Source: an uncultured Lutibacter sp. | GTDB lineage: Bacteria; Bacteroidota; Bacteroidia; Flavobacteriales; Flavobacteriaceae | Assembly (NCBI RefSeq): GCF_947493565.1 | Contig: NZ_CANLRG010000007.1 | Location: forward strand, 124,001 to 188,000 | Length of the DNA: 64,000 bases | Direction of reading: 5' to 3' | In this document: piece by piece, positions 8,201 to 62,726 of the stretch | How the letters are laid out: the number at the start of each line of letters is the position of its first letter | Numbering within the stretch: the first letter of the stretch is position 1 | Notes under the pieces: model-generated | What the model was told of the DNA's origin: nothing | The model's database searches: none | The model's input: the letters and a program-made list of their open reading frames with translations, nothing else | Made by a program: the position numbers and the translations under genes

Positions 8201-8445
8201 TTGGGGCAAAAAATTCAGTAGCTAGCAGACTTGGTTTTTCAATGTATGCTACAAGATCTGCCCAAGTAGATGTTACTGGAGCGCAAAAAGAACAATTTGA
8301 AATTGCTAAAACTCAGTTTACGGCTCAAGAAACTGATTTAAAAAAGTTAGTGATGGAAAAATTACCAACGCTTCAAAAAGAGTTTGAGACAAAAGGAGGA
8401 GTGCTTTATAATATTCCTGATAGACGTAGGTATTATGAAGATTAA
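5224..8445 (+). CDS. Secreted BNR/VPS10 (sortilin-type) propeller protein
   Basis: A 1073-residue exported protein, commonly annotated as a VPS10-domain or glycosyl hydrolase-like protein. A signal peptide ends near TQFFAQ and is followed by a Lys-rich stretch. The body starts with the family signature IGPAAYSGRI and carries about nine Asp-box (SxDxGxTW-type) repeats, for example KTTDGGKTW, KSTDMGGTW and KSTDKGKTW, which build one or two beta propellers up to about residue 750. A C-terminal part of about 300 residues contains a stretch resembling the FlgD-like Ig fold found in secreted Bacteroidota proteins, then a helical tail. No hydrolase catalytic site can be identified, so the enzyme label is not supported; binding or peptidase-associated roles are possible. 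The start could be 5224 or the next ATG at 5233. A near-match -7 element, TAAATTTA, lies at 5176-5183. Confidence 0.85.
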   Translation: MLKMYKKGWIFTFFLSVLMLVPSTQFFAQRKKKKSSESKQFELKENMLNILKFRSIGPAAYSGRISDLAVNPDNPSEYYVGVASGGLWKTINHGTTFEPIFDDQSVFSIGCLAMDPNNSNVVWVGTGENNSQRNLAYGDGVYKTTDGGKTFTNMGLKTSSQIGKIMIDPRNSNVVYVAAQGQAWGPGGERGLYKTTDGGKTWNRVLEIGEYTGVSDMEMDPRNPDILYASAHQRERRVYSKINGGPESAIYKSVDAGASWTKLKKGLPKGDVGRIGLALSPANPDIIYAVIELPGSKSGFYRSTDMGESWEKRSDKGTTSPQYYNEVYADPLNPNLVILMDTRNALSEDGGVTWKNIEGRNKHVDNHAIWIDPKDTNHYLVGCDGGLYETFDRAKTWQFKNNLPITQYYHVRVDNEFPFYNVYGGAQDNGSWFGPSQTHRRNLVNSDWTYTIGGDGYLSIPDPNNPDIHYCESQYCGLRRYDRTTGNSISIQPQPTTDEEYRWNWNTPYFLSPFNSKTLYVAGNYVFKSTDMGGTWKKISGDLTRQIDQNSLPMMGKIWPPEAIAKNLSTSKFGNIFALAESPLKQGMIYAGTDDGLIWITENDGENWTKFDKFPGVPEMTFVNYVLPSQHNENVAYACFDGRKNSSDFKPYLLKSTDKGKTWTSIAANLPSGTVYCIQEDFLNPNILFIGTEWGVWTTIDGGKKWVQIKNGIPTIQVKDLTIQQRENDLVVATFGRGYYVLDNYSSLRHLNEEIESKEAHLFEIKDALLYFPSSNLNYQGDVHFRTPNPNPSAKFEYYVKTGYETLKQKRIKAQKAAEKSGTFVYPSEEELMAEEQEDKPTLIFTIYDSKNNIMRKLTSPLKSGYNSIFWDLSYLSNRGAKVVPGEYKVAVDKNVKGEFTRLVEPKSFKVVSLPNGLGTPNYESNFEFLKQVTDLNVKVMASRTQIEKVNTTLKNMKTILSNMPVEASVLVDKINDLQKETDAISKVIIGGFGAKNSVASRLGFSMYATRSAQVDVTGAQKEQFEIAKTQFTAQETDLKKLVMEKLPTLQKEFETKGGVLYNIPDRRRYYED

Positions 8446-8467
8446 TTAAAATTTTATTGATAGTCAT

Positions 8468-8503
8468 AAAAATCTCTTTAGTTTTCTAAAGAGATTTTTT
8501 TAT
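8468..8503 (+). terminator. Terminator after the propeller gene
   Basis: Stem AATCTCTTTAG (8471-8481) with CTAAAGAGATT (8486-8496), a TTTT loop and a T run. Confidence 0.9.
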
Positions 8504-8601
8504 TTAAGATGAAAACCCTTTAATAAATAACTTCAAAGAAGAAAAATGTAGTAAATTTATCCAACTATTTATAAAAATTGAAATACCAAAAAAACTGTAA
8601 C

Positions 8602-9702
8602 ATGGTACCTTTGATCACTATAGAAGAAAAACTAAAAGAACGAATAAAAGAACTTACTTGTTTATATGAGGTTACTTCGATTATAGTAAATTGTGATTAT
8701 GACCAACTACAAAAAAGTTTACAAGCTATAGTTATTTGCCTAAAAGATGCTTTACGTTATAGTGAACAAGCCTGTGTAGAAATTAAAACCGATGATTTTT
8801 TTGTTTCCACAGAAGAGTTTCCAAAAAAAATGGTTCTTATAAGTTCACCAATTCATATGTTTAATAAAGAAGAAGGAGTTTTAAAAGCAGGGTATTTAAA
8901 TACTAATTTTACAGAAAAAGTATTTTTATATGAAGAAAAATTACTTTTAGCTAAAGTTGCTATTGAAATAGGTAATTTATTAGAGCGTAAAAAAATTCAA
9001 GAAAATGAAGCTCTTTTAAAAAGAAAAGTTGAACGAGCTGATAGAATTAGTATATTAGGTGAAATAACAGCTGGAATTGCTCATGAGTTAAATACACCAT
9101 TAGCAAATATTTTAGGTTTTGCTGAACTGTTAAAAAGTAGGTCAAAAAAAAATAGCCAAGCTGAAAAAGATATTGATAAAATTATCAATAGTGCAATTTA
9201 TTCAAGAGAAGTGGTCAAGAAACTTATGTTTTTTGCCTGTGAGATGCCTCAAAAAAAAGAGCTAGTAACCATAAATGAAGTAATAACAGACGCCATAAAT
9301 TTACTAGATCCAACATTCAAAAAGAACAAGATAACCTATTATTTAAACTACAGTCATCCTTCAATTCAATTAAAAGTAGATATCATTCAACTCACTCAAG
9401 TTATTTTTAATCTAATTTTAAATGCCATTTATTTTTCACCCGAAAAAGGGGAAATTATTATCAATGTAACAGACAATTTAAAAGATGTTGAATTAAAGAT
9501 TTCTGATGAAGGACCAGGAATAAAAAATAGTATTTCAGACAAAATATTTGAACCCTTTTTTACTACAAAGCCTGTTGGAGATGGTTCAGGCCTAGGTTTA
9601 AGTGTGGTTCACGGTATTATTAAAAGCCATCAAGGAGCTATTAAACACGAACCTAATTACCCTAAAGGAACTACCTTTGTTATTAATTTTCCTAAATTAT
9701 AG
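8602..9702 (+). CDS. Sensor histidine kinase partner of the sigma-54 regulator
   Basis: A 366-residue kinase when started at the ATG at 8602; a TTG at 8578 in the same frame would add eight residues but is a less likely start in this genome. There is no transmembrane helix. The first 145 residues have a GAF-like look but no clear signature. The phosphorylated His lies in GIAHELNTPL (residue 161). The ATPase core shows the N box NLILNAIYFSP, the G1 box DEGPGI and the G2 box GSGLGLSVV. The arrangement, a soluble kinase directly followed by an NtrC-type regulator, resembles AtoS/ZraS-like pairs. The signal is unknown. The next gene starts only five bases after the stop, so the two are co-transcribed. 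A near-match -7 element, TAAATTTA, lies at 8552-8559. Confidence 0.9.
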   Translation: MVPLITIEEKLKERIKELTCLYEVTSIIVNCDYDQLQKSLQAIVICLKDALRYSEQACVEIKTDDFFVSTEEFPKKMVLISSPIHMFNKEEGVLKAGYLNTNFTEKVFLYEEKLLLAKVAIEIGNLLERKKIQENEALLKRKVERADRISILGEITAGIAHELNTPLANILGFAELLKSRSKKNSQAEKDIDKIINSAIYSREVVKKLMFFACEMPQKKELVTINEVITDAINLLDPTFKKNKITYYLNYSHPSIQLKVDIIQLTQVIFNLILNAIYFSPEKGEIIINVTDNLKDVELKISDEGPGIKNSISDKIFEPFFTTKPVGDGSGLGLSVVHGIIKSHQGAIKHEPNYPKGTTFVINFPKL

Positions 9703-9707
9703 ATGTA

Positions 9708-11033
9708 ATGACTTTAAAGCAAGAAAACATATTAATTGTTGATGATGATATTAATATATTAGAACTTATCCAAAGACATTTACAAGATTTAAATTATCAT
9801 AGTTATAAGGCAATATCTGTAAAAGAAGCCATTCAAATTTTAAAAGATACTTCTATCGACTTACTAATAACAGATCTTAAAATGCCTGAAGTTGATGGTT
9901 TTCAGTTGATTAAGTATGTGTCGGAACATTATCCATCATTGCCAAAATTAGTTGTTACGGGTTACCCATCATTACATGAGGCAGTTGATGTTATGAAATC
10001 TGGAGCTATTGATTATTTAGTAAAACCTTTTACTAAAGAAGAATTAAAAGAAGCGGTTTTAAAGTCATTTTTACAAAAACCAAAAACAAATTTTACATCA
10101 TCTAAAGTTGAAAAATCAACTAATCAAAACTATGGTGAATTAATTGGAAATTCGAAAGAATTAAAAAAAGTGACTGAAATTATTGAAAGAGTAAAAAATA
10201 ATAAAGCAACTGTTTTTATTCATGGAGAGAGTGGTACAGGAAAAGAATTAGTAGCAAGGGCAATTCATTATATGGGGAAATTTGCTCGTGCCCCATTTAT
10301 AACAGTTAATTGTGCAGCCATTCCAGAATCTTTATTGGAGTCCGAATTATTTGGGTATGTAAAAGGAGCTTTTACGGGTGCGGATTCTAATAGAAATGGT
10401 TTTTTTCAAGCTGCTAATACTGGAACTATTTTTTTAGATGAAATTGGAAGCGCCCCATTGGCTGTTCAGGCAAGATTATTAAGAGTGCTACAAGAAAAAG
10501 AAATTACTAAAATTGGTTCGCAAAAAGTTGAAAAATTAGATTTGAGAGTTATTACGGCTACCAATAATAATTTAGAGGAACTCATTCAAAAAAAATTATT
10601 TAGAGAAGATTTATATTACCGTTTAACGGTAGTTCAAATTAAGATTCCACCACTTAGAGATAGAAAATCTGATATTCCTCTTTTAGTTGATAAATTTTTA
10701 TTTAAGTATGGAGTAGAGTATAAAGATAAATTTATAAAAATTTCATCGGAAGCAATGGAAATTTTAATGCGTAATCACTGGCAAGGAAATATTAGGGAAC
10801 TTGAAAACGTAATACAACAAGCTGTAATTTTATGCGATAATAATATTGAGATTAAAGATTTACCTAACTATCTTAAATTTAAAATTAATTTTGAAAATTC
10901 TACATTATTATCCCTTAAAGAATTTGAAAAAAACTACATTCTTAAAGTTTTAGCAGCTACTAACAATAACAAAACTAAAGCTGCAGAGATTCTTCAAATT
11001 GATAGAAAAACACTACGTCAAAAAATTCAATAG
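9708..11033 (+). CDS. NtrC-family sigma-54-dependent response regulator
   Basis: A 441-residue activator with three domains. The receiver domain (1-125) has the acidic pocket DDD near residue 10 and the phosphorylated D56 in TDLKMPEVDG. The AAA+ domain has Walker A GESGTGKE (173-180), the sigma-54 contact loop GAFTGA (220-225) and a Walker B ending in FLDEIG. A short C-terminal Fis-type helix-turn-helix ends in TKAAEILQIDRKTLRQKIQ. The intact GAFTGA loop means it should drive RNA polymerase with sigma-54, not just bind DNA. It should be phosphorylated by the kinase encoded immediately upstream. The most obvious candidate target is the small-gene pair that follows at 11209-11753. Confidence 0.95.
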   Translation: MTLKQENILIVDDDINILELIQRHLQDLNYHSYKAISVKEAIQILKDTSIDLLITDLKMPEVDGFQLIKYVSEHYPSLPKLVVTGYPSLHEAVDVMKSGAIDYLVKPFTKEELKEAVLKSFLQKPKTNFTSSKVEKSTNQNYGELIGNSKELKKVTEIIERVKNNKATVFIHGESGTGKELVARAIHYMGKFARAPFITVNCAAIPESLLESELFGYVKGAFTGADSNRNGFFQAANTGTIFLDEIGSAPLAVQARLLRVLQEKEITKIGSQKVEKLDLRVITATNNNLEELIQKKLFREDLYYRLTVVQIKIPPLRDRKSDIPLLVDKFLFKYGVEYKDKFIKISSEAMEILMRNHWQGNIRELENVIQQAVILCDNNIEIKDLPNYLKFKINFENSTLLSLKEFEKNYILKVLAATNNNKTKAAEILQIDRKTLRQKIQ

Positions 11034-11070
11034 AAAATTTACATTTAACTGAGAGTTTTTGTTTCACATG

Positions 11071-11178
11071 GGGAATATTTCCTCAATTCATTTTATTTAA
11101 AAGATTCCTCAATGTGCTTGTAATCAAGTTGTTGAGAAATTATTTAGTTGCCTTTTATAGATTTGGAATAACTATTGA
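11071..11178 (+). promoter_or_regulatory. Possible sigma-54 promoter region with repeated upstream sites
   Basis: Two identical copies of TTCCTCAAT lie at 11079-11087 and 11105-11113 (26 bases apart). The first is part of an imperfect palindrome, GGGGAATATTTCCTC. A GG-N10-GA pair (GG 11165-11166, GA 11177-11178) sits at the -24/-12 spacing, but the -12 dinucleotide should be GC. An imperfect Bacteroidota -7 element, GATATTTG (11177-11184), overlaps it. The repeats are seen directly; the promoter class is not decided. Confidence 0.35.
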
Positions 11179-11208
11179 TATTTGTATTTAAAATTAAATA
11201 ATATCATT

Positions 11209-11373
11209 ATGTATAAAATAGATAGTAGTTTATGTTCGACTTGCATTCATTTAAAGTCTTGTACATTAACTGAGAGTAAGCGATTTATTTGGTCATGTAG
11301 TGAATTTGAAGTAAATAAAATTAATGAAAAACATGATATAGAGATTAAAAAAACAGAATTTGAATTTAATTAA
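11209..11373 (+). CDS. Small Cys-rich protein of unknown function
   Basis: A 54-residue protein. The ATG at 11209 is preferred over an upstream in-frame TTG at 11182, because the TTG would fall inside the promoter-like sequence. It has four Cys in the pattern C-x2-C-x5-C-x10-C (C9, C12, C18, C29: CSTC, SC, WSC), followed by a charged tail without Cys. This could be a small zinc-binding knuckle or a redox-active site. No signal peptide or membrane segment is present. It is followed 20 bases later by another small gene and both lie directly behind a sigma-54 two-component pair, so they may be its output. I do not recognise the family beyond this. Confidence 0.65.
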   Translation: MYKIDSSLCSTCIHLKSCTLTESKRFIWSCSEFEVNKINEKHDIEIKKTEFEFN

Positions 11374-11393
11374 AAATTAAACTTGTTAAAAAA

Positions 11394-11753
11394 ATGCCAT
11401 TATTTTATAATCACGAATCTGATGAAGAAATAAGTGTAAAGCTGCAAACTAAAGAGTTGGCTAATTGGATTGAGCATTTAGAGTTTGTAACCACTGAAAT
11501 AAATCATTTACTTAAGTTAAAAAAAGAGTTAGTAATAAATAAAATTTTAGAAAAAGAGTTGCTTGATAAAAAAGAAGAAAATGAAGTTTTATTGAGTATT
11601 TTCTATAATTACAGAAGTAAAGTTGAAAATTCTATTGAATGTATGGATATAGCTTGTGATATGTATTATCTAAACCAGCAAGAGATTTTTAGAGAACAGT
11701 ATTTATTTCATATCAGAGAATATAGAGCTTTAAAAGCTGAAATTTTAGCATAA
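11394..11753 (+). CDS. Hypothetical helical protein downstream of the two-component pair
   Basis: A 119-residue soluble protein rich in Glu, Lys and Leu that should be almost all alpha-helical, with a probable coiled coil over residues 20-80. It contains the stretch ECMDIACDMYY with two Cys, and no signal peptide or membrane helix. It begins 20 bases after the small Cys-rich gene and ends before a strong hairpin, so the pair looks like a two-gene operon. The function is unknown. Helical proteins of this size next to stress-type two-component systems are often adaptor or ion-binding proteins, but nothing here proves that. Confidence 0.65.
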   Translation: MPLFYNHESDEEISVKLQTKELANWIEHLEFVTTEINHLLKLKKELVINKILEKELLDKKEENEVLLSIFYNYRSKVENSIECMDIACDMYYLNQQEIFREQYLFHIREYRALKAEILA

Positions 11754-11835
11754 TTTTTTAATGTGTTTGAGTAAAAATTGTTATGAAAAAGCCATGATTC
11801 ACCATAATAATTGGTGTTGATGTTTAATTTGCTAA

Positions 11836-11878
11836 GCGTATTTAAAGCGTGTGTAAAAACTTACACACGCTCATACGC
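11836..11878. terminator. Nested inverted repeat between convergent operons
   Basis: A perfect 10-bp stem GCGTGTGTAA (11847-11856) with TTACACACGC (11861-11870), loop AAAC, enclosed by a second pair GCGTA (11836-11840) and TACGC (11874-11878). It lies between the ends of two convergent genes and probably terminates both, although no clear T run follows on either strand. It is unusually GC-rich for the region. Confidence 0.55.
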
Positions 11879-11888
11879 GATTATTTAT

Positions 11889-14375
11889 TTAAATTTTCAC
11901 GTTTCTTAATCTAAGTGCATTGGTAATTACAGATACAGAGCTAAAACTCATAGCAACTGCAGCAATAATTGGAGAGAGTAAAATACCAAAAATTGGGAAT
12001 AATAATCCTGCGGCAATTGGTACTCCTAAAATGTTGTAAGCAAATGAAAAGAATAAATTTTGTTTTATATTTTTAAGGGTCTTTTTGCTTAGTGTATTAG
12101 CTTTAACAATACCTTCTAAATCTCCTTTAACCAAAGTTATTTCAGCACTTTCTATGGCCACATCTGTACCAGTACCCATAGCAATGCCTATATTAGACTG
12201 TGCTAATGCTGGAGCATCATTAATACCATCACCTGCCATAGCTACAATGTTACCTTTTTCCTGTAGTTTTTTAATATAATCTAATTTATCTTTTGGTAAA
12301 CAATTCGCTTTATAATTACTCAACTTTAATTCATCAGCAACGGCTTTAGCAGTATTTTCATTATCTCCTGTTAACATAATAACCTCAATTCCTTCTTTTA
12401 TTAGATTGTGGATAGCCCTTTTACTGCTATCTTTAATAGCATCTGAGATGCTTACATAACCTAACGCAATATTATTAATAGCTATATAAGAAACTGTTTT
12501 ACCAAGTTTTTGTTCAGAAAGAATTTCTTTTTTTAAAGTTGAAGGAATTTTGGCGTTTATGGTTTCCATCAATTTTAAATTTCCTAAAGCAATTTTAGTT
12601 TGTTGAATGGTTCCTACAACTCCCATTCCTGAAATAGCTTCAAAGTCGGGTACTTTAGTTAATGCTGCATTTTTTTTATGGGCATATTGTACAATGGCCT
12701 TAGCCAAAGGATGTTTACTATATTGATTTAAAGAGGCTATATATCCTAAAACTATTTCGGGCTTTTCATCTAAAATGTAAATTTTTTCAACTGAAGGTCT
12801 TCCCTCTGTAATTGTACCTGTTTTATCTGTAATTAAAACATTTACTTTATTCATAATTTCTAGAGCTTCTGCATTTTTTATTAAAATTCCATTTTGAGCT
12901 CCTTTTCCTATACCAACCATCACAGACATTGGTGTTGCCAAACCTAGAGCACAAGGACAAGCTATAATTAAAACGGCTACCGAATTTACAAAAGCATAAA
13001 CCAATGCCGGATCTGGCCCAAAATTGGCCCAAACAATAAATGTTATAATAGATATAACAACCACAATAGGAACAAAGTATTTAGAAATGGTATCTGCTAA
13101 TTTTTGGATAGGAGCTCTAGATCTACTCGCATCACTTACCATTTTTACAATTTGAGATAAAAGGGTTTCAGAACCTACCTTTTGGGCTTTCATTACAAAA
13201 GATTTTGTAGTATTGATGGTTCCAGAATTTACATTATCATTAACCGATTTATCTACAGGAATAGGTTCTCCTGTAATCATAGATTCATCAATACTACTCG
13301 AACCTTCTACAATAATTCCATCAACGGGAATTTTTTCACCTGGTTTTACACGTAGCAAGTCATTAACTTTAATAGTGTTAATTGCCACTGTTTTATCAAC
13401 CCCATTGATAACTAATGTAGCTTCTGAAGGAGCTAATTTTAATAGCTCTTTAATTGCTCCACTGGTTTTGCTATGTGCTTTAGCTTCTAACAATTGCCCT
13501 AATAAAACTAAAGTAAGAATTACTGCAGTTGCTTCAAAATAGATGTCTACATGACCAGACATCCCTTTAAATTCTGAAGGAAATACTTCTGGAAAAAATA
13601 AACCAATTATACTAAATATAAAAGCCGCTCCTGTTCCAATACCAACTAAGGTAAACATGTTTAAATTCCAAGATACTATGGATTTCCAGCATCTTACAAA
13701 AAACATCCAGCAAGTATAAAACACAATTGGAATGGTTAAAATAAACTGCAGCCAATCCCAAAAATATTGTGAAGTAATTTCTAAAAGTGGATTTTTAGGT
13801 AAATGTGATGACATAGATATGAAGAAAACAGGAATTGCTAATAAAGCTGAAATTTTCATCTTTTTAACTAACTCTTTATAGGTTTTATCTTCTTCGCTTT
13901 TGCTAGGCTCCATTAAAACTAAATCCATTCCACATTTAGGGCATAACCCTGGAGTATTCTGAATTATCTCAGGGTGCATTGGACAGGTATAAGTTGTTTC
14001 TTGACTAAGTTTAGGTTGTTCAATTAAATCCATTCCGCAAACTGGACATCCTACGTTTTTAGTATAGGTTTTAGTTCCTTCACACTGCATTGGACAATAA
14101 AAAACACCATTTCCTTTTTTTTCAGAGGTATTAGAGTGTTTTTTTTTGTCCTTTTTCCCGACGTTTGGTAATTCAATGGTATAATGTAAACCTGCATTTG
14201 TTAAAACTTGTTGTAAGTTTTCTATTGTAATATGCGAAGTCATGTCAATAATAACTTCTTTAGTTTTCAAATTTACAGTAACTTTTTTAACTTCTTTTAG
14301 GGTAGTTAATGCAGTTTCAACATTATTTTTACAACCTGAACAGGTCATTCCTGAAATGTAATAGGTATGTTTCAT
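11889..14375 (-). CDS. copA: Copper-exporting P1B-type ATPase (CopA)
   Basis: An 828-residue cation pump that uses ATP to move Cu+ out of the cytoplasm. From the N-terminus: one HMA domain with GMTCSGC (C12, C15), then two Cys/Met/His heavy-metal-binding modules of the form CPM...CPxCGMDL (about 92-118 and 127-155), then the P-type core. The transport site is the CPC motif (C473-C475) in [11 protein letters not shown], and the phosphorylated D517 is in [14 protein letters not shown] supplies the His-Pro typical of P1B pumps, and [10 protein letters not shown] closes the ATP-binding hinge. CPC together with GMTCxxC points to Cu+/Ag+ and not to zinc. It is the last gene of the minus-strand copper locus, 119 bases after the small metal-binding gene. 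Having two modules in addition to the HMA domain is common in this phylum. Confidence 0.95.
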
Positions 14376-58080: not shown

Positions 58081-59103
58081 ATGAATGAAAATTTGAATCC
58101 TGATAAAACTAATTTTTCACCTGAAGAATTGGACGTTGAAAAAAAATTACGTCCATTAACTTTTAGTGACTTTACAGGACAAGAGCAAGTTTTAGAGAAT
58201 CTTAAAATTTTTGTTGAAGCGGCGAATTTAAGAGACGAAGCCTTAGATCATACGTTATTTCATGGTCCCCCAGGTTTAGGAAAAACTACATTGGCACATA
58301 TATTATCCAATGAATTAAATGTAGGTCTTAAAATAACTTCAGGTCCTGTTTTGGATAAACCAGGTGATTTAGCTGGGCTATTGACCAATTTAAGTGAACG
58401 AGATGTATTGTTTATTGATGAAATTCATCGATTAAGTCCAATTGTAGAAGAATATTTATATTCTGCAATGGAAGATTATCGTATCGATATTATGATTGAA
58501 TCTGGACCAAACGCTCGTACTGTTCAAATAGATTTAGAACCATTTACTTTAATTGGAGCCACTACACGTTCAGGTTTATTAACAGCACCAATGAGAGCTC
58601 GATTTGGAATTAGTAGTAGATTGCAATACTATAATACAGAACTACTTACTACTATTGTTCAACGAAGCGCCACCATTTTAAAAGTGCCTACTTCAATGGA
58701 AGCAGCAATTGAGATCGCAGGTAGAAGTAGAGGAACACCTCGTATAGCAAATGCTTTATTGCGTAGAGTTAGAGATTTTGCTCAAATTAAAGGAGATGGA
58801 ACAATTACCATTGAAATTGCAAAATATGCCTTAAATGCCTTAAACGTAGATGCTCATGGTCTAGATGAAATGGACAATAAGATTTTGACTACAATTATCG
58901 ATAAGTTTAAAGGAGGCCCTGTAGGGATAAGTACATTATCAACAGCAGTTGGAGAAAATTCTGAAACCATTGAAGAAGTTTATGAACCTTTTTTAATTCA
59001 AGAAGGTTTTATAATGCGTACACCAAGAGGAAGAGAAGTTACTCATTTAGCTTACAAACACTTAGGTAAAGTTAAAGGAGAAAGTCAGGGAGAACTATTC
59101 TAA
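58081..59103 (+). CDS. ruvB: Holliday junction branch migration helicase RuvB
   Basis: A 340-residue AAA+ motor that drives branch migration with RuvA. Walker A is GPPGLGKTT and Walker B is [11 protein letters not shown], with sensor 1 [10 protein letters not shown]. The C-terminal winged helix ends in [16 protein letters not shown]. Length is standard and the start is the only plausible ATG. ruvA and ruvC are not in the window. Confidence 0.97.
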
Positions 59104-59109
59104 ACAATA

Positions 59110-59125
59110 TGTGATTAAAATCACA
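59110..59125 (+). promoter_or_regulatory. Crp/Fnr-type site upstream of the SulP pair
   Basis: TGTGATTAAAATCACA is a perfect 7-2-7 inverted repeat and matches TGTGA-N6-TCACA. Its centre (59117.5) is 28.5 bases before the first T of the -7 element, near -40 of the predicted transcript, the place for a class II activator. There is no TTG at -33. Confidence 0.65.
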
Positions 59126-59145
59126 AAACTAAATTTTTATCGCTG

Positions 59146-59153
59146 TACTTTTG
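59146..59153 (+). promoter_or_regulatory. -7 element of the SulP pair
   Basis: Perfect TACTTTTG, 26 bases before the ATG of the first transporter. Confidence 0.65.
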
Positions 59154-59179
59154 TAGTGATAATTAGCATAAACTTAGCT

Positions 59180-60907
59180 ATGAGTTTAAAAAAACTATTC
59201 CCTTTTTTAATATGGTTGCCTTTAATAAAAGACACTTGGAAAGATGATATAATTGCAGGTATTACAGGAACCATTATTGTGATACCTCAAGCAGTAGCAT
59301 TTGCTATGATTGCTGGTTTACCTCCAATATATGGTTTTTATACCGCAATGATAACCCCTTTAATAGCTGCATTATTTGGCTCATCATATCATTTAATTTC
59401 TGGACCAACAACCACAAGTTCTATAGTTGTATTTGCAGTAATAAGTAAATTTGCAAACCCTGAATCTGAGATGGAAGCTTTTATTTCATTAGCAATACTG
59501 TTATCATTTATGGCAGGAGTTATAAAACTAGTAATGGGCTTTGCTAAAATGGGTAAACTAGTAAATTTTGTTTCACATTCTGTTGTAATAGGCTTTGCTG
59601 CTGGAGCAGGAATTTTAATCGCTTTTAAACAATTAAAATATGTTTTTGGTATAGAAGTTCCATTAGGAAGTTCGTTCTACGAAATTATAGATTATATCAT
59701 TTTACACATACAAGAAACTAATTTATATGTTTTAGGGGTTGCATTAGGTACTCTTTTAATTGCATTTGTAATAAAAAGAATCAAATACATTTCAAGATTA
59801 TACATGTTAATAGCGATGGTGTTGGGAAGCGTTTTGGCAATTCTTTTAGGAGGTTCTTTACATGGGATTGAAACCGTAGGAAATGTACCTTCTAATTTAC
59901 CACCATTTAAAGTACCAGATTTTAATTTTGAAGATATGCGTTTGTTAACTACAGGTGCAATTACTTTAGCTTTACTAGGTTTGGTTGAAGCCGTTTCAAT
60001 TGCGAGAGCAGTAGCCTTACATTCTCATCAAAAATTAGATAATAATCAAGAGTTTATAGGCCAAGGATTGTCAAATATTATTTCTAGTTTTTTCTCTTCT
60101 TATGCAAGTTCAGGCTCATTTACAAGATCAGGTGTAAATTACCAAGCAGGAGCTAAAACACCATTTTCAGCCATTATATCTGCAATAGGTTTAATGTTAG
60201 TGGTTTTATTTTTTGCCAAATTTGCATCGCACTTACCTAAACCAGCTATGGGTGGTATTATTTTATTGGTAGGCTATAATTTAATAGATTTTGAACATAT
60301 TAAGAAAATAACAAAAAGCAGTAAACGAGAATTTATTGTTTTGATGGTTACTCTTTTGGGAACTTTATTTTTGGAATTAGAGATTGCCCTATTTTTAGGA
60401 ATAATAATTTCACTGTTTTTTTATCTAGAAAGAACTTCAAAACCAAACATAGCTGTATTTGGAAAAAATAGTGCAGATAAATTTATTAATTTAATTAGAG
60501 ATGACTCAGCTGAAGAATGTCCACAATTAAAAATGATTAGAATTGACGGTTCTTTATATTTTGGAGCTGTAGATGGTATCTCAAATTATTTTGCTGAGTT
60601 GTATGACAAGAACGACTATAAACATTTACTTATTATCGCAAATGGTATTAATTTTATAGACGTAGCTGGGGCTGAATGGATTACCCATGAGGTTTTAAAG
60701 TGGCAAAAGAGAGGAGGAGGAATTTATTTTGTTGGTTTAAAAATTATAAGTCAAGATGTTCTTAAAAAAGGAGGGTTTATTCAAACTATTGGATCTCAAA
60801 ATTTCTTTAAAGATAAAAACACAGCTATTTCAACAATTTTTAAAAAGTTAAACAAAGAACAATGCTTAAGTTGTAAGGTTAAATTATTTAATGAATGTAA
60901 AGTATGA
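59180..60907 (+). CDS. SulP-family anion transporter with STAS domain (first copy)
   Basis: A 575-residue membrane transporter started at the ATG at 59180 (MSLKKLFPFLIWLP); a GTG at 59111 would start inside the regulatory repeat and upstream of the promoter. The first helices carry AGITGTIIVIPQAVAFAMIAGLPPIYGFY, the SulP signature region. A C-terminal STAS domain (about 445-555, with INFIDVAGAEW) follows, and the protein ends in a short Cys-rich tail (CLSCKVKLFNECK). Family members move sulfate, bicarbonate or related anions. The substrate is not fixed by sequence, but the linked sulfur enzyme suggests sulfite, sulfate or thiosulfate. Confidence 0.92.
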   Translation: MSLKKLFPFLIWLPLIKDTWKDDIIAGITGTIIVIPQAVAFAMIAGLPPIYGFYTAMITPLIAALFGSSYHLISGPTTTSSIVVFAVISKFANPESEMEAFISLAILLSFMAGVIKLVMGFAKMGKLVNFVSHSVVIGFAAGAGILIAFKQLKYVFGIEVPLGSSFYEIIDYIILHIQETNLYVLGVALGTLLIAFVIKRIKYISRLYMLIAMVLGSVLAILLGGSLHGIETVGNVPSNLPPFKVPDFNFEDMRLLTTGAITLALLGLVEAVSIARAVALHSHQKLDNNQEFIGQGLSNIISSFFSSYASSGSFTRSGVNYQAGAKTPFSAIISAIGLMLVVLFFAKFASHLPKPAMGGIILLVGYNLIDFEHIKKITKSSKREFIVLMVTLLGTLFLELEIALFLGIIISLFFYLERTSKPNIAVFGKNSADKFINLIRDDSAEECPQLKMIRIDGSLYFGAVDGISNYFAELYDKNDYKHLLIIANGINFIDVAGAEWITHEVLKWQKRGGGIYFVGLKIISQDVLKKGGFIQTIGSQNFFKDKNTAISTIFKKLNKEQCLSCKVKLFNECKV

Positions 60908-60917
60908 ACAACAAGTA

Positions 60918-62651
60918 ATGATTAAACATTTTATTCCAAGTTTACAATGGTTACCAAACTATAAGAAAGAATGGTTAAAAGGTGACATTAATGCAGGATT
61001 AACCATTGGAATTATGTTAATACCTCAAGGAATTGCTTATGCAATGATTGCAGGTTTGCCTCCTATTTACGGTTTATACACAGCAATGATACCACAAATT
61101 GTTTATGCTTTTTTAGGAACTTCTAGACAATTAGCTGTAGGGCCAGTAGCAATGGATTCTTTAATTGTAGCTTCTGGGGTGGCAACATTAGCACAAATTG
61201 GAACAGAAAATTTTATTGAGTTTGCTATTTTATTAGCTTTCTTAATGGGCTTAATGCAAATTATTTTTGGTGTATTTAAATTGGGATTTTTGGTAAATTT
61301 TTTATCAAGACCTGTTATAAGCGGATTTACATCTGCTGCGGCATTAATTATAGGACTAAATCAGTTAAAACACTTACTAGGTGTTAATATTCAAAGAAAT
61401 AATAAAATTCAAAATTTAATTGTAGATGCTTACACTAATATTAGTGATATTGAATGGAAAACTTTTTTAATTGGGGCTATTTCAATAATTATTTTAGTGT
61501 ATTTTAAAAAGTATTCTAAAAAAATTCCAGCGGCATTAATTGTAGTAGTATTAGGCATACTTTTAGTTAAAATATTTAATTTAGAACAGTCTGGAGTTAA
61601 AATTGTGGGCGAAATTCCTAAGGGTTTACCAAGTTTTAAAATGTTAAATTTTAATTTTAAAGTAATTATGGAATTATACCCAATAGCACTAACGTTAGCA
61701 TTTATTGCGTTTTTGGAAGCGATATCTGTAGCAAAAGCAATTGAATTAAAACATACTAATTATAAAGTAGAACCCAATAAAGAATTAATAGCTATTGGAT
61801 TTGGAAATTTAGTGGGTTCTTTTTTTCAAACATACCCCGCCACTGGTGGTTTATCTAGAACGGCTGTAAACAATCAAATTGGAGCCAAAACTCCTTTAGC
61901 TAGTTTAATAGCAGCATTTGTGGTTGGTCTTACATTAATGTACTTTACTCCATTATTTTATTATTTGCCCAAAGCAATTTTAGCAGCAATAATTATAGTA
62001 GCTGTTTTTGGGTTGTTAGATTTTACAGTGCCAAAACAGTTACTTAGTTATTCAAAAAGAGAATTAATAATATTGAATATAACATTGATAATTACTGCAA
62101 CAATTGGAATAAAGGAAGGAATATTAACTGGGATAGTTTTATCAATTTCTATGTTAATATATAGAAGTACCAAACCTCATATTGCAATTTTAGGAAAAGT
62201 ACCTAATACTCATTTTTATAGAAATTTATCAAGATTTGAAGGTTTATTGGAAACCAAAGATGAAATTCTTATTTTAAGGTTTGATGCTCAATTATACTTT
62301 GCTAATGTACAATACTTTAAAGATAAGTTAGATGAATACGCTGCTCAAAAAGGAAATAAATTAAAGTTAATTATTGTTGATGGTGAAAGTATTAATAGTG
62401 TTGATAGCTCAGCAATATACACGTTAAAAGATGTAATAGCCAAATATGAAAAGTTAGGAATTGAATTGTCTTTTTCAGGCTTAAAGGGACCAGTAAGAGA
62501 TGTATTAAGTAAAGCGGGTGTTATAAGAAAAATAGGATTAGAAAGTTGCTTTATGAGCATTCAAGAAGCAGTTGATGCATTTGAAGAAAGAAAAAAGAAT
62601 AAAGAAATTGAAGTGAAATATTTTGAATATATAAAACAAACAAATCGTTAA
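60918..62651 (+). CDS. SulP-family anion transporter with STAS domain (second copy)
   Basis: A 577-residue tandem relative of the preceding gene. The start at 60918 (MIKHFIPSLQWLP) aligns with the first copy's start; an ATG at 60891 would overlap the preceding gene by 17 bases. It keeps the SulP signature IPQGIAYAMIAGLPPIYGLY and a C-terminal STAS domain with SINSVDSSAIYTLKDV. It lacks the Cys tail of the first copy. The two copies differ throughout, so the duplication is old and the two may differ in substrate or form a heterodimer. Confidence 0.92.
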   Translation: MIKHFIPSLQWLPNYKKEWLKGDINAGLTIGIMLIPQGIAYAMIAGLPPIYGLYTAMIPQIVYAFLGTSRQLAVGPVAMDSLIVASGVATLAQIGTENFIEFAILLAFLMGLMQIIFGVFKLGFLVNFLSRPVISGFTSAAALIIGLNQLKHLLGVNIQRNNKIQNLIVDAYTNISDIEWKTFLIGAISIIILVYFKKYSKKIPAALIVVVLGILLVKIFNLEQSGVKIVGEIPKGLPSFKMLNFNFKVIMELYPIALTLAFIAFLEAISVAKAIELKHTNYKVEPNKELIAIGFGNLVGSFFQTYPATGGLSRTAVNNQIGAKTPLASLIAAFVVGLTLMYFTPLFYYLPKAILAAIIIVAVFGLLDFTVPKQLLSYSKRELIILNITLIITATIGIKEGILTGIVLSISMLIYRSTKPHIAILGKVPNTHFYRNLSRFEGLLETKDEILILRFDAQLYFANVQYFKDKLDEYAAQKGNKLKLIIVDGESINSVDSSAIYTLKDVIAKYEKLGIELSFSGLKGPVRDVLSKAGVIRKIGLESCFMSIQEAVDAFEERKKNKEIEVKYFEYIKQTNR

Positions 62652-62670
62652 AAAAATCAAAATATTTTTA

Positions 62671-62692
62671 TTATGTAACCTTAATTACATAA
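62671..62692 (+). promoter_or_regulatory. Crp/Fnr-type site upstream of the persulfide dioxygenase gene
   Basis: Arms TTATGTAA (62671-62678) and TTACATAA (62685-62692) around a six-base centre; the core is TGTAA-N6-TTACA. The centre (62681.5) is again exactly 28.5 bases before the first T of a perfect -7 element. Confidence 0.65.
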
Positions 62693-62708
62693 AAATACGT
62701 TGTTTCTT

Positions 62709-62726
62709 GTAGTTTTGGAAAACTAC
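62709..62726 (+). promoter_or_regulatory. -7 element inside a perfect inverted repeat
   Basis: TAGTTTTG (62710-62717) is a perfect TAnnTTTG. It lies inside GTAGTTTT-GG-AAAACTAC (62709-62726), an 8-2-8 inverted repeat that spans the promoter and the predicted start of transcription. Confidence 0.55.

Follow-up and report, generated by a model that had tools for sequence, protein, structure and literature searches.

The analysed window is a stretch of 64,000 nucleotides from an uncultured Lutibacter sp. of the Flavobacteriaceae. It covers positions 124001-188000 of the plus strand of contig 7 (C7) in a source genome of 3.10 Mb and 37 contigs. Towards its right end lie two genes for SulP transporters and one for a CstB-like persulfide dioxygenase-rhodanese. 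The SulP pair and the CstB-like operon are each preceded by a palindrome of the Crp/Fnr type and a TAnnTTTG promoter element (Table 1). The original prediction, made from the letters of the window, had described both palindromes as perfect TGTRA-N6-TYACA repeats standing before these genes. Both repeats were confirmed by the exact sequence, the second at the position given in Table 1, and both gene sets were found directly downstream. The putative operator of the SulP pair begins 6 bases past the ruvB stop codon (59103-59110). Lutibacter-like loci have ruvB ahead of the sulfur cluster; many other relatives do not.

Table 1. Predicted operator-promoter units and the genes behind them, in positions of the window.
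Feature	Position	Strand	Remarks
Crp/Fnr-type palindrome TGTGATTAAAATCACA (TGTGA-N6-TCACA)	59110-59125	+	Before SulP pair; centre at -40.5 of inferred start
-7 element TACTTTTG	59146-59153	+	Inferred +1 at 59158
SulP1, SulP anion transporter with STAS, 575 aa	59180-60907	+	Pfam Sulfate_transp 7.9e-98, STAS 2.1e-10
SulP2, SulP transporter with STAS, 576 aa	60921-62651	+	Pfam Sulfate_transp 9.7e-118; NCBIfam sulP above cut-off
Crp/Fnr-type palindrome TGTAACCTTAATTACA (TGTAA-N6-TTACA)	62674-62689	+	Before CstB-like operon; centre at -40.5 of inferred start
-7 element TAGTTTTG	62710-62717	+	Inferred +1 at 62722
CstB-like persulfide dioxygenase-rhodanese, 471 aa	62761-63999, continues past window (L004:3762-5177)	+	Pfam, PDB

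The CstB-like protein carried MBL and rhodanese domains by Pfam on a single chain, as CstB-type enzymes do. NCBIfam matches below their cut-offs indicated a second rhodanese-like stretch at about residues 363-463. The PDB entries 3tp9 and 3r2u aligned over nearly the whole chain. The latter, presumably Staphylococcus aureus CstB, shared the MBL and rhodanese architecture at full length and matched residues 5-455. The source protein differed from it in matching 3tp9 better, and its regulation looks to be of the Crp/Fnr type and not by CstR. Ten of the first 12 CstB relatives listed came from Lutibacter and showed 86-92% identity.

Outside the window, the CstB-like gene was followed by genes for a rhodanese lipoprotein, a Tll0287-like protein and an HMA protein. 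Then came SQR behind its own palindrome, TGTGACTTTAATCACA, 64 bases before the gene. The closest solved relatives of this SQR were mitochondrial SQRs (6mp5, 6mo6 and 6oi5, 1.1e-109), which places it with the mitochondrial kind (type II). Against the type III seleno-SQR model it reached 257.5 bits, below the cut-off of 525.

Sites were also present in two other sulfur loci of the source genome. On contig 11, a site between crp1, a gene of the Crp/Fnr type, and two short YeeE-type genes lay 28.5 bases from TACTTTTA. On contig 5, a site was located 36 bases before a type III SQR (SQR2), followed by DsrC- and DsrE-like genes. The contig 11 locus (L111:8469-10796) held crp1, the YeeE-type genes of 185 and 137 aa and crp2, with an R-E helix, in a row; after crp2 stood genes resembling moaA, moeA, moaC and mobA by eye. 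The contig 5 locus was a second sulfur cluster (L112:3977-6033 and 8258-13172), with the SQR2, DsrC-like and DsrE-like genes behind the palindrome and, one gene further, crp3, a porin gene and three rhodanese-domain genes.

In both units of the window, the palindrome centre lay 28.5 bases from the T of TA in a perfect TAnnTTTG, exactly as had been claimed. The claimed lack of a -33 TTG also proved correct, with no TTG around -33 of either promoter; the right half-site ends there. The TAnnTTTG box of Flavobacterium psychrophilum spans -12 to -5 (PMC9723704; this and the other papers are cited from excerpts). On F. psychrophilum coordinates, the palindrome centre inferred from the -7 box falls at -40.5 in the window and at -41.5 in most relatives. 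Judged by these predicted starts, the arrangement is the class II Crp/Fnr position, near -41.5 and overlapping the upstream core element.

The bare TGTRA-N6-TYACA pattern occurred twice in the window, and at least two occurrences were found in 15 of 100 shuffles. Genome-wide, 28 sites stood against 36 for the reversed-pattern control, and the bare pattern was therefore rejected as a regulon finder. The 16-mer gains value as a search pattern only once the inner Y and R are fixed or the -7 box is required. Palindrome and TAnnTTTG at 28.5 bases together gave three matches in 3.10 Mb and none in the control, in line with the claim that the equal spacing is unlikely by chance. They comprised both window sites and one antisense site inside a korA-like gene. 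After inspection of the sites of relatives, the inner bases were fixed to TGTRAY-N4-RTYACA. Thirteen of the 15 genome sites of this form were intergenic, compared with 2 of the remaining 13 sites of the 16-mer. Five of the 13 intergenic sites preceded sulfur genes. The other eight preceded, among others, genes for a molybdopterin oxidoreductase (NapA-like by eye), a thioredoxin-like protein, cytochrome c assembly or a beta-eliminating lyase, a FadL-like or DUF7935 protein and a 2-oxoacid oxidoreductase. One Y..R palindrome (L118:4286-4301; C4:79785) had a beta-eliminating lyase gene on one side and, on the other, a gene for a fusion of the ResB/cytochrome c assembly type. The same form with a promoter at 28.5 or 29.5 was matched in the source genome by the two window sites and C5:141940.

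Conservation was assessed in 80 named loci that encode a CstB relative, the best of 547. Upstream regions were de-duplicated and a site was counted at no more than one mismatch. The site was present in 69 of 82 upstream regions of CstB-like genes (shuffle mean 5.5), in all 22 of SQR, in all 4 of SQR2 and in 12 of 15 of YeeE1. SulP2 held it in 22/55 regions, SulP1 in 16/41 and Rhd136 in 21/68 (shuffle mean 4.8). The internal controls HMA, CytC195 and RuvB showed 1/31, 3/25 and 2/18, respectively. These controls and the spacing weigh more than the shuffles, because the shuffles ignore shared ancestry. Palindrome positions 3, 5, 12, 14 and 15 were invariant in 69/69 CstB sites, and the middle four varied. 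The absence of the repeats from orthologous promoters, named in the original prediction as an outcome that would speak against it, was not seen. The site occurred in 1 of 14 Crp1 upstream regions, which leaves autoregulation of Crp1 unsupported as a general feature, and in 0 of 3 Crp3 regions. A second CstB-like gene, 55-57% identical to that of the source genome, directly followed the first in L045, L049, L073, L075 and L082.

The promoter element stood at a nearly fixed distance from these sites. Following the 69 CstB sites, an exact TAnnTTTG was found 46 times at 28.5 or 29.5 and 5 times at all other distances. Among the 46, one had a TTG near -33, the position that is reached by the right half-site. 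The exact element at 28.5 or 29.5 was also present at 17/22 SulP2 sites and at 14/16 SulP1 sites of the relatives, in the SulP1 set at 28.5. It was rare at SQR (3/22) and YeeE1 (1/12) sites, where boxes with no more than one mismatch peaked at the same distances. A deeper set comprised 60 of the 64 regions with both Crp1 and CstB, from 60 genera, searched in both orientations at no more than one mismatch to TGTRAY-N4-RTYACA (221 sites). Here, 70 exact TAnnTTTG fell at 29.5 and 6 at 28.5, amounting to 76 of 78; the other 58 distances tested, from 8.5 to 67.5, held only two. Fifty of the 60 loci had a site with TAnnTTTG at 28.5 or 29.5. Neither the reversed motif (34 sites) nor any of three scrambled motifs (8, 18 and 16 sites) had an exact box at these two distances; elsewhere they gave 9, 0, 0 and 2. 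A spacing that is not conserved had likewise been named as an adverse outcome. It was not observed, although the distance is 28.5 or 29.5 and not always the predicted 28.5. The third adverse outcome, a genome scan with the pattern at random positions, was not obtained either.

A regulator gene had been predicted just beyond the right edge of the window. This part of the prediction failed: the 15 kb beyond this edge contained no crp/fnr gene, and the contig of the window carried none of the 10 matches to cyclic nucleotide monophosphate (cNMP)-binding proteins in the genome. In many relatives, unlike the source genome, the regulator is encoded near CstB. The candidate regulators of the source genome were Crp1 (C11:58468-59103) and its paralogue Crp3 (C5:174257-174910). 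Crp1 stands directly before the YeeE pair, with the palindrome in the gap, and Crp3 one gene from SQR2. Crp1 belonged to the Crp/Fnr superfamily, scoring above cut-off for the cNMP-binding domain PF00027 (41.1 bits) and for the Crp-type HTH domain PF13545 (39.7 bits).

Eleven cNMP- or Crp-type proteins of the source genome were read, the 10 matches and Crp2. The recognition helix TSRVVVSRLLKQLE was common to Crp1 and Crp3, and the other nine had no R-V-V. An R-V-V relative of Crp1 or Crp3 was encoded in the CstB locus in 15 of the 80 loci of relatives, many of which are cut by contig ends, and directly upstream in three. A sixteenth such locus (L089) had R-E in place of R-V. A second Crp/Fnr type, with the helix S-S-R-E-V-I-S-R and the motif E-S/T-C, shared the loci at L055:9480, L060:12740 and L069:12567, where it stands shortly before SQR. 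It was also present at L045:15738, L049:15654, L058:12220, L063:14918, L073:10307 and L082:10704.

Co-occurrence was analysed in 100 Flavobacteriaceae genomes from 99 genera. Proteins above 180 bits, a line set after the scores had been seen, were counted as the Crp1 clade, which was present in 84 of the genomes. Strict matches of site plus promoter numbered 92, against 1 for the control. They occurred in 60 of the 84 genomes with the clade and in none of the 16 without it (p 4.7e-8, kinship ignored). For genomes of at least 2.5 Mb the counts were 60 of 80 and 0 of 9 (p 1.6e-5, kinship ignored). The presence of CstB cannot explain this contrast, because a CstB-like match at 1e-60 or better was found in 99 of the 100 genomes. 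The regulator lay within 10 kb of a CstB-like match in 64 genomes, matches of 33-37% identity included. From these genomes, 29 CstB upstream regions, of 30 loci, were read individually. A site with no more than one mismatch was present in 24 of the 27 with the Crp1 clade. G030, which is without the clade, encodes a CstB of 76% identity, and its upstream region had no site even at two mismatches.

Within the clade, R183, V184, V185, S187 and R188 of the helix were conserved in 60/60 members. A covariation between the helix and TGTGA or TGTAA half-sites was sought in the clade and there was none to correlate, because R-V-V is present in all 60 with either half-site. In a tree that included every second of the 60 clade members, Crp1 and Crp3 formed one group (100/94), and the neighbouring group was made up of 22 further sampled members (98/96). 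Since they pair in the tree, Crp1 and Crp3 are suggested to have arisen by duplication in the Lutibacter line.

The putative target genes in relatives were surveyed at 30 loci from the family scan, taking the longest ATG frame that started within 450 bases. Ten were scanned with Pfam and the others assigned by blastp or by eye from the first 70 residues. Sulfur oxidation or transport accounted for 14 of the 30 (CstB-like 4, TauE/SafE 5, YeeE 2, rhodanese 2 and a SoxA/TsdA-type cytochrome 1). Nine were DUF983 membrane-protein genes, assigned once by Pfam and eight times by eye (L137, L138, L140, L145, L157, L158, L160, L163 and L164). We know of no sulfur role for DUF983 genes; they may belong to the regulon unrecognised, or a sister regulator may control them. 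One gene each was found for a DUF302, a thioredoxin-like, an ArsR and an aldehyde dehydrogenase protein; two targets had no family and one no frame. The predicted sulfur regulon stood as a conserved site before linked sulfur genes, and is larger than the two promoters. It extends to SQR, YeeE and the second SQR-DsrC-DsrE operon in the source genome and to TauE, YeeE, rhodanese and DUF983 genes in relatives.

The operator pair of the window most likely belongs to a conserved Crp/Fnr class II regulon. The two palindromes are very probably operators for an activator of the Crp1/Crp3 clade that controls a regulon for the oxidation of sulfide and sulfane sulfur. The sites, their geometry and their conservation, as well as the co-occurrence and neighbourhood of the regulator clade, are features of the sequences themselves. 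Class II activation by one Crp/Fnr protein, as originally proposed, fits the site geometry, the conservation and the link to one clade.

Several observations weigh against this interpretation. The regulator is not encoded beside the CstB operon of the source genome and is present as two paralogues. The -7 element of the SQR promoter is poor (TAATTTCC), and the match at C5:141940 faces no gene. No site was found in 13 of the 82 CstB-like and 25 of the 41 SulP1 upstream regions, and 10 of the 60 regions of the deeper set were without site plus promoter. Twenty-four of the 84 clade-bearing genomes had no strict match, only 46 of the 92 matches had the regulator or CstB no more than 10 kb away, and DUF983 genes made up 9 of the 30 targets. 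In G068, which is without the clade, a two-mismatch palindrome with TAnnTTTG at 29.5 preceded a CstB-like gene; it may be a remnant, or a different regulator may use it.

For the operators of the Crp1/Crp3 clade, we infer binding, activation rather than repression, the enzyme reactions and the signal as follows. A clade dimer would read TGTRAY-N4-RTYACA through its R-V-V-(V/I)-S-R recognition helix. Bound at -40.5 or -41.5, its right half-site would replace the -33 element. Because the right half-site takes the place of that element, the dimer would recruit RNA polymerase as a class II activator. SQR would oxidise sulfide to persulfide, the CstB-like enzyme and rhodanese would oxidise or transfer the persulfide sulfur, and SulP and YeeE would move sulfur anions. 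The likely signal is sulfane sulfur, which would be sensed by cysteines of a cAMP-binding cassette that has degenerated; the YeeE proteins encoded next to the regulator may assist.

Crp1 was compared with the characterised members of its superfamily. FNR is marked by a cysteine cluster near the N-terminus and an E-x-x-S-R helix. Membership was rejected for Crp1, whose first cysteine is residue 78 and whose helix reads R-V-V-V-S-R. With CRP it shares the fold family, the TGTGA-type half-sites and the class II position. It scored 42.7 bits against a CRP cut-off of 266, and membership was rejected. Glu72 of CRP contacts cAMP; in an alignment with the CRP sequence, the corresponding residue was Ser in Crp1 and Met in 60/60 clade members. 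The base-contact residues of CRP are Arg180, Glu181 and Arg185 (PMC12531629), so Val184, conserved in 60/60 clade members, takes the place of Glu181. NtcA gave the third-best PDB alignment of Crp1, with 3dv8 and 1o5l scoring higher; STRVTVTRLL in the NtcA match compares with SRVVVSRLL in Crp1. The NtcA box of cyanobacteria is GTA-N8-TAC centred near -41.5 (PMC3898017). It is contained in TGTAAC-N4-GTTACA, and the 29.5 spacing corresponds to -41.5, a likeness of site and not of membership. NtcA membership was rejected at 39.7 bits with a cut-off of 244.95. Crp1 differs from NtcA in coming from another phylum, in belonging to a clade with conserved cysteines and in being linked to sulfur instead of nitrogen genes.

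Three cysteines of the clade, C78 (60/60), C84 (60/60) and C85 (59/60), were located in the cassette that matches the cAMP pocket of CRP. Because they occupy this site, the clade is likely a thiol sensor of sulfane sulfur, the reading that accounts most simply for the target genes. A fuller model is tentative but quite possible. It regards the clade as a persulfide sensor of the Bacteroidota on a Crp/Fnr scaffold, in which the cAMP cassette would have become a three-cysteine sulfane-sulfur trap (T-C-x-M-S/T-x-x-C-C). Persulfidation would turn the protein into a class II activator, the short YeeE pair would feed in a sulfur signal from outside, and in most Flavobacteriaceae the regulator would act as the main control of sulfide oxidation. 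The cysteines of the source genome make the sensor model less convincing for this organism: Crp1 has C78 and C91 and thus neither cysteine of the CC pair, and Crp3, with C78 and C85, is without one. The pairing of a YeeE-type gene with the gene of a sulfur regulator has a parallel in Hyphomicrobium, where YeeE-like SoxT1B passes a sulfur signal to SoxR (PMC11582611), an ArsR-type repressor (PMC12423496). The source genome differs in that the regulator next to YeeE is of the Crp/Fnr family and that there are two YeeE-type genes, both short.

It is also possible, and somewhat doubtful, that the clade controls these promoters and senses oxygen, another oxidant, nitric oxide or a metal, or binds a small metabolite. 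The near-invariant cysteines would suit any thiol chemistry, and targets such as DUF983, DUF302 and aldehyde dehydrogenase have no obvious link with sulfide. However, sulfur oxidation and transport was the commonest recognisable function, at 14 of the 30 loci and at 5 of the 13 intergenic sites of the source genome.

It is unlikely that some other protein of the superfamily, a general Fnr- or CRP-like regulator, works the sites and the sulfur genes form part of a broad anaerobic or carbon response. The genome does hold ten cNMP-binding matches, and one gene that looks Fnr-like by eye neighbours a gene resembling a heavy-metal ATPase. Sites are found, too, before the molybdopterin oxidoreductase, cytochrome c assembly and 2-oxoacid oxidoreductase genes, and G068 has its two-mismatch site without the clade. 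On the other hand, strict matches were confined to clade-bearing genomes (0/16 elsewhere), the clade was found within 10 kb of a CstB-like match in 64 of 100 genomes, the other nine proteins are without the R-V-V helix and G030 shows no site.

SqrR and BigR are of the ArsR type, CstR is CsoR-like and FisR is a sigma-54 activator; these protein families are unrelated to the Crp1 clade. They control SQR, persulfide dioxygenase (PDO)-rhodanese fusion and rhodanese genes, and SqrR senses persulfide via two cysteines (PMC9995734). The same source names SqrR and CstR as repressors, and FisR and OxyR as activators. The window sites might by analogy be repressor operators that are released by sulfide, as in the SqrR and CstR systems. 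However, the position at -40.5 or -41.5, the tolerance of one base and the missing -33 element form the pattern of a class II activator. Repressor operators usually tolerate varied positions, which also makes this improbable.

Chance palindromes or terminator hairpins with a coincidentally equal spacing can practically be dismissed: bare palindromes were genome-wide no commoner than the control and a 5-bp RNA stem could form, but no long T run directly follows the stems, and conservation, co-occurrence and the fixed spacing of the cross-genome histogram contradict this view.

A literature search of open-licence PMC papers found neither a published regulator of CstB-like genes in Bacteroidota nor a Crp/Fnr protein described in this phylum as controlling sulfide oxidation or persulfide dioxygenase. 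The regulators named for such genes in PMC9995734, SqrR, BigR, CstR and FisR, belong to other families. With operators of the Crp1/Crp3 clade, site, spacing and gene are now testable, and the case shows that sequence can reveal a regulon in a phylum whose promoter is unusual. If the clade does act in this way, the bacterial sensors of sulfane sulfur would gain a further scaffold, that of a Crp/Fnr class II activator carrying three conserved cysteines.

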